Shown: positions 18,051-18,183 of the stretch, piece after piece
How positions within the stretch are numbered: position 1 is the first letter of the stretch
Layout of the letters: every line of letters starts with the position of its first letter
Source: Rhodocyclaceae bacterium
GTDB lineage: Bacteria > Pseudomonadota > Gammaproteobacteria > Burkholderiales > Usitatibacteraceae
Assembly: GCA_020247545.1 (NCBI GenBank)
Contig: JADCIX010000023.1
Location: 1 to 64,000 of the forward strand
DNA length: 64,000 bases
Reading direction: 5' to 3'
Translations under genes and position numbers: made by a program
Notes under the pieces: generated by a model
What the model was told of the DNA's origin: nothing
Seen by the model: only the letters and a program-made list of their open reading frames with translations
The model's database searches: none

Positions 18051-18079
18051 TTGAACTTTTGCAGATCTAGCGCATCTAT
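18051..18079 (+). promoter_or_regulatory. Sigma-70-like promoter candidate for the small RNA
   Basis: TTGAAC at 18051-18056, a 17-base spacer, and ATCTAT at 18074-18079. The -35 box is good and the -10 weak but correctly spaced; initiation would be expected near 18086, exactly where the first hairpin begins. Confidence 0.45.
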
Positions 18080-18085
18080 TCACAC

Positions 18086-18183
18086 GAAGCGTTCGCGCTT
18101 CCCCGCTTTCCCTCCCTGAGCGGGGCCTTTTGAAGAAGGCTTCGGGGCATAGGTTCTCCCCTTTACCTATGCCCCTTTTTATT
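18086..18183 (+). ncRNA. Candidate trans-acting small RNA with C-rich loops
   Basis: About 95 nt on the plus strand between hemB and engB, both on the minus strand. Four consecutive hairpins are visible: GAAGCG-TTCG-CGCTTC (18086-18101); CCCGCT/AGCGGG with loop TTCCCTCCCTG (18102-18124); GCCTT/AAGGC (18125-18140); and an 11-bp stem GGGGCATAGGT/ACCTATGCCCC with loop TCTCCCCTTT (18144-18175), followed by TTTTT. The last is a strong intrinsic terminator that no plus-strand protein gene needs. Two exposed loops are C/U-rich and could pair with ribosome-binding sites, as known for CU-rich-loop small RNAs in alphaproteobacteria and Neisseria. Function is inference; I do not match it to a named family. 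Confidence 0.6.

Follow-up and report, generated by a model that had tools for sequence, protein, structure and literature searches.

The window, that is, the whole 64,000-nucleotide stretch of DNA analyzed here, carries in its engB-hemB gap a plus-strand RNA gene (approximately 18085-18184), both flanking genes being on the minus strand (Table 1). This RNA is the host's single copy of a known family, RF02837 anti-hemB, to which the present analysis adds a covarying 5′ hairpin (H1) and a conserved terminator loop, both left out by Rfam. We consider it probable that the product is a trans-acting small RNA (sRNA) of about 100 nt, transcribed by sigma-E, equipped with anti-Shine-Dalgarno loops and the counterpart of ErsA and sX13; within this reading the sigma-E control, the targets and the common descent are putative. 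In the Burkholderiales few sRNA families are as widespread as anti-hemB, for which no function was found in the literature searched. The interest lies not in the RNA itself, which is not new, but in the first testable function that this orphan family gains: a sigma-E-type promoter, together with the slot of ErsA and sX13, makes anti-hemB a concrete candidate for the missing betaproteobacterial envelope-stress sRNA.

Table 1. Features of the engB-hemB region of the window
Feature	Position	Strand	Evidence or remark
hemB	16920..17924	-	start at 17924; divergent from the sRNA, no overlap
-35 element TGAACTT, sigma-E (RpoE/AlgU)-type promoter	18052..18058	+	111 homologous loci give its place and consensus
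-10 element TCTAT (family consensus TCTNA), 16-nt spacer	18075..18079	+	111 homologous loci
Predicted sRNA transcript, anti-hemB family	18085..18184	+	5′ end predicted from the spacing to the promoter and from ncS04, the 105-nt homologue
Hairpin H1, GAAGCG-UUCG-CGCUUC	18086..18101	+	fold, covariation; absent from the Rfam model
Rfam RF02837 anti-hemB match	18100..18182	+	54.6 bits; gathering threshold 49.5; E 5.5e-10
Hairpin H2, anti-Shine-Dalgarno loop UCCCUCCCU	18102..18124 (loop 18109-18117)	+	fold, near-invariant loop
Hairpin H3, GCCUUU-UGAA-GAAGGC	18125..18140	+	fold, covariation
Hairpin H4, intrinsic terminator: 11 bp then TTTTTATTT; C/U-rich loop UCUCCCCUUU at 18155-18164	18144..18184	+	fold, covariation, loop conservation
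engB (ysxC/yihA) GTPase gene	18211..18840	-	convergent with the sRNA; remains beside the sRNA in other gammaproteobacteria

Family membership and place in the genome

A cmscan of the whole window reveals RF02837 as the sole match above its gathering threshold, with the full model (1-81) covered, which overturns the suggestion of an earlier note on this DNA, whose reader could match the RNA to no named family, that it could be a new regulator. The note's description of a plus-strand sRNA with four hairpins and its own terminator between hemB and engB is sound, every element lying where it had been placed. The RF02837-type hairpin (CCCGC-loop CCUCCCUG-AGCGGG) is present at 18102-18124, and the RNA is found in the family's place, the engB-hemB gap, on the opposite strand. 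Scores above the RF02837 cut-off occur in 22 of the 28 genomes from the host's family and in 164/250 from its order; a plasmid collection gave no match. The family has expanded in one genome of the same order (G255, contigs C10 and C1), which possesses six RF02837 matches; several exceed the cut-off, and both tandem and widely separated matches are among them.

In Burkholderia cenocepacia the homologue ncS04 has been confirmed as a transcript of 105 nt by dRNA-seq, 3′RACE, and Northern analysis; it binds Hfq, and its function is not known (PMC5688073). B. pseudomallei also has an anti-hemB RNA (PMC3521395). The window RNA resembles the family (RF02837; Burkholderia RNA 7; ncS04) in sequence, structure, engB-hemB place, strand, and length (about 100-105 nt), and differs in that H3 is shorter, and the terminator stem derived (GGGGCAUAGGU), in its own genus. 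Neither H1 nor the terminator loop nor the promoter is part of the Rfam model (81 nt). Our covariance model, R1, comprises all four hairpins, including the H1 missing from Rfam, and recovers the window RNA (54.3 bits), the betaproteobacterial loci, and 20/20 fetched distant loci. It matches 38 of the 39 named loci with hemB beside engB and one of the 41 without that adjacency. Among the EngB loci of Methylophilaceae (e.g., L062-L068), those in which hemB does not adjoin engB lack the RNA.

The name anti-hemB implies cis-antisense action, in which the RNA would pair with a long transcript that reads through engB and hemB, and would control hemB; congruent with this, betaproteobacterial loci have it between these two genes and on the other strand. 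We regard such a role as highly improbable: some 160 nt separate the hemB start from the beginning of the RNA, which lies upstream and heads away from that gene, other gammaproteobacteria have the same RNA beside polA with hemB not nearby, and both the conservation of the loops and the binding of ncS04 to Hfq suit pairing in trans. Acting in trans, the sRNA would have no cis effect on hemB, which is simply adjacent. The hemB frame (minus strand, 16920-18254) is open upstream across the whole sRNA antisense, to an ATG at 18254, and automatic annotation may therefore stretch hemB across the sRNA gene.

Fold, covariation, and exposed loops

The MFE fold of the sRNA consists of the four hairpins listed in Table 1, the last of which spans 18144-18175, and leaves the loops UCCCUCCCU and UCUCCCCUUU unpaired. 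Against dinucleotide shuffles the plus-strand fold has a z of -4.9, with 0/200 equally stable. The minus strand is also foldable (z = -5.6), so that stability alone is no guide to the strand, which follows from the T-run, from the promoter, and from conservation. The terminator, previously described as an 11-bp stem and a T-run, is recovered by the fold and is clear by eye; it was absent from the output of a simple terminator scan because its loop is 10 nt.

The R1 alignment comprises 76 distinct sequences; its cells are 96.1% paired, and double-sided compensatory changes occur in 28/30 base pairs. The covariation score is 0.588, compared with 0.157 for shuffled and at most 0.10 for slid controls, a large contrast in an alignment that was fitted to the structure and is thus biased towards it. 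In the H1 helix (helix 1), 7/7 pairs are changed on both sides, with 92.6% paired. H2 hardly varies, nor does its loop CUCCUCCCUGA (CCUCCCU in 103/111 copies), and the terminator loop UCCCCUUU, which the Rfam consensus renders as an unconserved U-run, is conserved at 83-98% per column. A comparison with relatives had been set beforehand as the test of the sRNA, and its outcome, compensatory changes in the stems together with conserved loops, is the one expected; the two C/U-rich loops proposed to suit pairing with ribosome sites are indeed exposed as well as conserved. The location at the 3′-end of engB, convergent with it, would also fit a mere terminator or insulator for the engB transcript with no regulatory role. 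This is scarcely credible, since no T-run follows the stem on the minus strand, termination requires neither the invariant loops nor three additional covarying hairpins, and the homologue ncS04 is a discrete transcript.

As a trans-acting regulator, the sRNA, probably with Hfq, would pair its CCCUCCC loop and its UCUCCCCUUU terminator loop with G-rich ribosome-binding sites and so block the translation of selected mRNAs. Candidate targets would be mRNAs with GGGAGG or AAAGGGGAG at the ribosome-binding site, which would be repressed. By analogy with sX13, S17, and ErsA, blocking of translation starts in trans is the most likely function of the CCCUCCC and UCUCCCC loops. In a target search with CAGGGAGGAGA across 28 family genomes the commonest matches were the sRNA's own antisense, the rest having no shared gene, and ribosome-binding-site complementarity within the window revealed no convincing target.

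S17 offers a case of analogous action by a CU-rich RNA (PMC11722255). The RF02278 Betaproteobacteria toxic sRNA, S17, and double-hairpin RNAs share CU-rich loops complementary to Shine-Dalgarno sequences; RF02278 differs in possessing two hairpins, a length of about 60-67 nt, and other loci and promoters. RF02278 had no match in the host genome or in 17900-18300, and no control genome matched for it either. Bordetella S17/CT_433 and the MicA-like CT_532 were rejected as the window RNA because they are found at other loci (coq7, pyrD). The earlier comparison with CcsR-type RNAs survives as a functional likeness but not as a family match, CcsR/ar14 (RF02344) being unmatched in 17900-18300 up to an E of 1; distant anti-hemB family members have sub-threshold ar14 scores. 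At 18170-18230 of the minus strand, a Chlorobi-1 match of 20.9 bits (gathering threshold 50) was taken as chance.

The promoter and sigma-E

The bases of the promoter TTGAAC-17-ATCTAT, put forward in the earlier note, are present but match sigma-70 poorly; read as TGAACTT-N16-TCTAT, the same bases are of the sigma-E type, and the generic form given in the note does not hold. A sigma-70 scan found no site on the sRNA strand. At the 111 homologous loci the -35 variants include GGAACTT (40), GGAACTA (18), and TGAACTT (17), and 97/111 copies score at least 9 of 11 for an upstream GGAACTT-N16/17-TCTNA-type motif, compared with 2.3% of shuffles. The spacer is mostly 16-17, and the -10 mostly begins 8-11 nt before H1. 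We take this motif to be the sigma-E/AlgU consensus form. The host genome encodes RpoE (325 bits), and its rpoE is preceded by a similar motif, TGAACTA-N16-TCAGT; a stringent promoter pattern gave one unrelated match in the host genome, no more than the reversed control. We infer that the promoter of the window RNA is of the sigma-E rather than the sigma-70 type, which is new relative to the known family. The motif suggests that sigma-E, the factor of cell-envelope stress, turns anti-hemB on, in which case RNA polymerase with sigma-E would transcribe the sRNA from GAACTT-N16-TCTAT.

None of the conditions tabulated for B. cenocepacia (biofilm, starvation, low pH, osmotic, low iron) altered the level of ncS04 significantly, and that study, whose stresses included SDS, reported that induction by stress was generally lacking (PMC5688073). 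This counts against simple stress induction: either sigma-E was inactive in those tests, or the promoter has basal activity, or the assignment to sigma-E is wrong. The unchanged levels, and the departure of the window's -10 TCTAT from TCTNA, would suit a constitutive housekeeping CU-rich sRNA, transcribed by the main sigma factor and nutritionally regulated as are the RF02278 double-hairpin RNAs, with the GAACTT motif being something else. We assign this a real but minor chance, given that the motif is kept at a fixed distance in the 97 copies, that a sigma-70-like site is absent, and that the ErsA gene shares the promoter form (TGAACTA-N17-TCAGA).

Possible kinship with ErsA, sX13, and Spot 42

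Schmidtke et al. (2013, PMC3771888) posed as an open question whether the polA loci of other bacteria encode sX13-like sRNAs. Among the loci sampled from distant gammaproteobacteria, 16/20 are convergent to engB and/or downstream of polA, as is Spot 42, and 0/20 lie beside hemB. A bridging locus (L159) possesses four tandem copies between polA and engB with scores of 35.9-41.8 bits for anti-hemB; the sX13 model gives one of them 48.3 bits (cut-off 50), and the ErsA model gives one 37.1. The sX13 model (RF02232) had no match in the window and scored only at this bridging locus. Arrays of four to five tandem anti-hemB-like RNAs beside polA occur in other gammaproteobacterial families (L159:2501-3255 and L160:2483-3223). 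Elsewhere, a porin gene (Porin_4) directly adjoins two anti-hemB-like copies (L156:3022-4149), and a c-di-GMP-I riboswitch aptamer is found on the minus strand between the sRNA and polA (L151:3037-3121). The bridging loci answer the question of Schmidtke et al. for many gammaproteobacterial families and extend the answer to the betaproteobacteria.

The best R1 match over 39 Pseudomonadaceae genomes falls exactly between polA and engB (24.7 bits, E 0.026), and Rfam names it RF01719 Pseudomon-1/ErsA (126.8 bits); with all filters off, R1 gives 16.2 bits at the ErsA place. Since both R1 scores are weak, the argument for kinship rests mainly on position. In the host the engB side of the ErsA slot is present, and hemB takes the place of polA. 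Searched up to an E of 1, 17900-18300 contained no RF01719 match. In one PrrF-bearing genome, engB adjoins gcvP, not polA. The terminator loop of the ErsA gene is CUUCUCCCUCCCC. ErsA of P. aeruginosa is polA-engB intergenic and strictly sigma-22 dependent; it represses oprD and algC, pairing with the algC ribosome-binding site, with Hfq.

From sub-threshold scores and position, a common descent of anti-hemB, sX13, and ErsA is plausible. Evenly balanced, in our judgment, is the wider proposal that these RNAs, perhaps with Spot 42, form one ancient engB-linked beta/gammaproteobacterial lineage, the betaproteobacterial member of which would be an unrecognized sigma-E-dependent envelope-stress sRNA with anti-Shine-Dalgarno loops.

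Spot 42 (RF00021) occupies the same slot in E. coli, between polA and the convergent engB/yihA, but its R1 score is only 13.1 bits (E 0.028) and homology is not claimed. In Xanthomonas, sX13 (RF02232, Xanthomonadaceae) is encoded downstream of polA, and its C-rich apical loops repress G-rich ribosome-binding sites (PMC3771888); it differs in being Hfq-independent. ErsA (RF01719, 132 nt) is convergent to engB, with a sigma-E/sigma-22-type promoter and a C-rich terminator loop (CUCCCUCCCC), and differs in its unstructured middle domain, without the CUCCUCCC hairpin H2. Anti-hemB appears to be the betaproteobacterial counterpart, in the same slot, of ErsA in Pseudomonas and sX13 in Xanthomonas.
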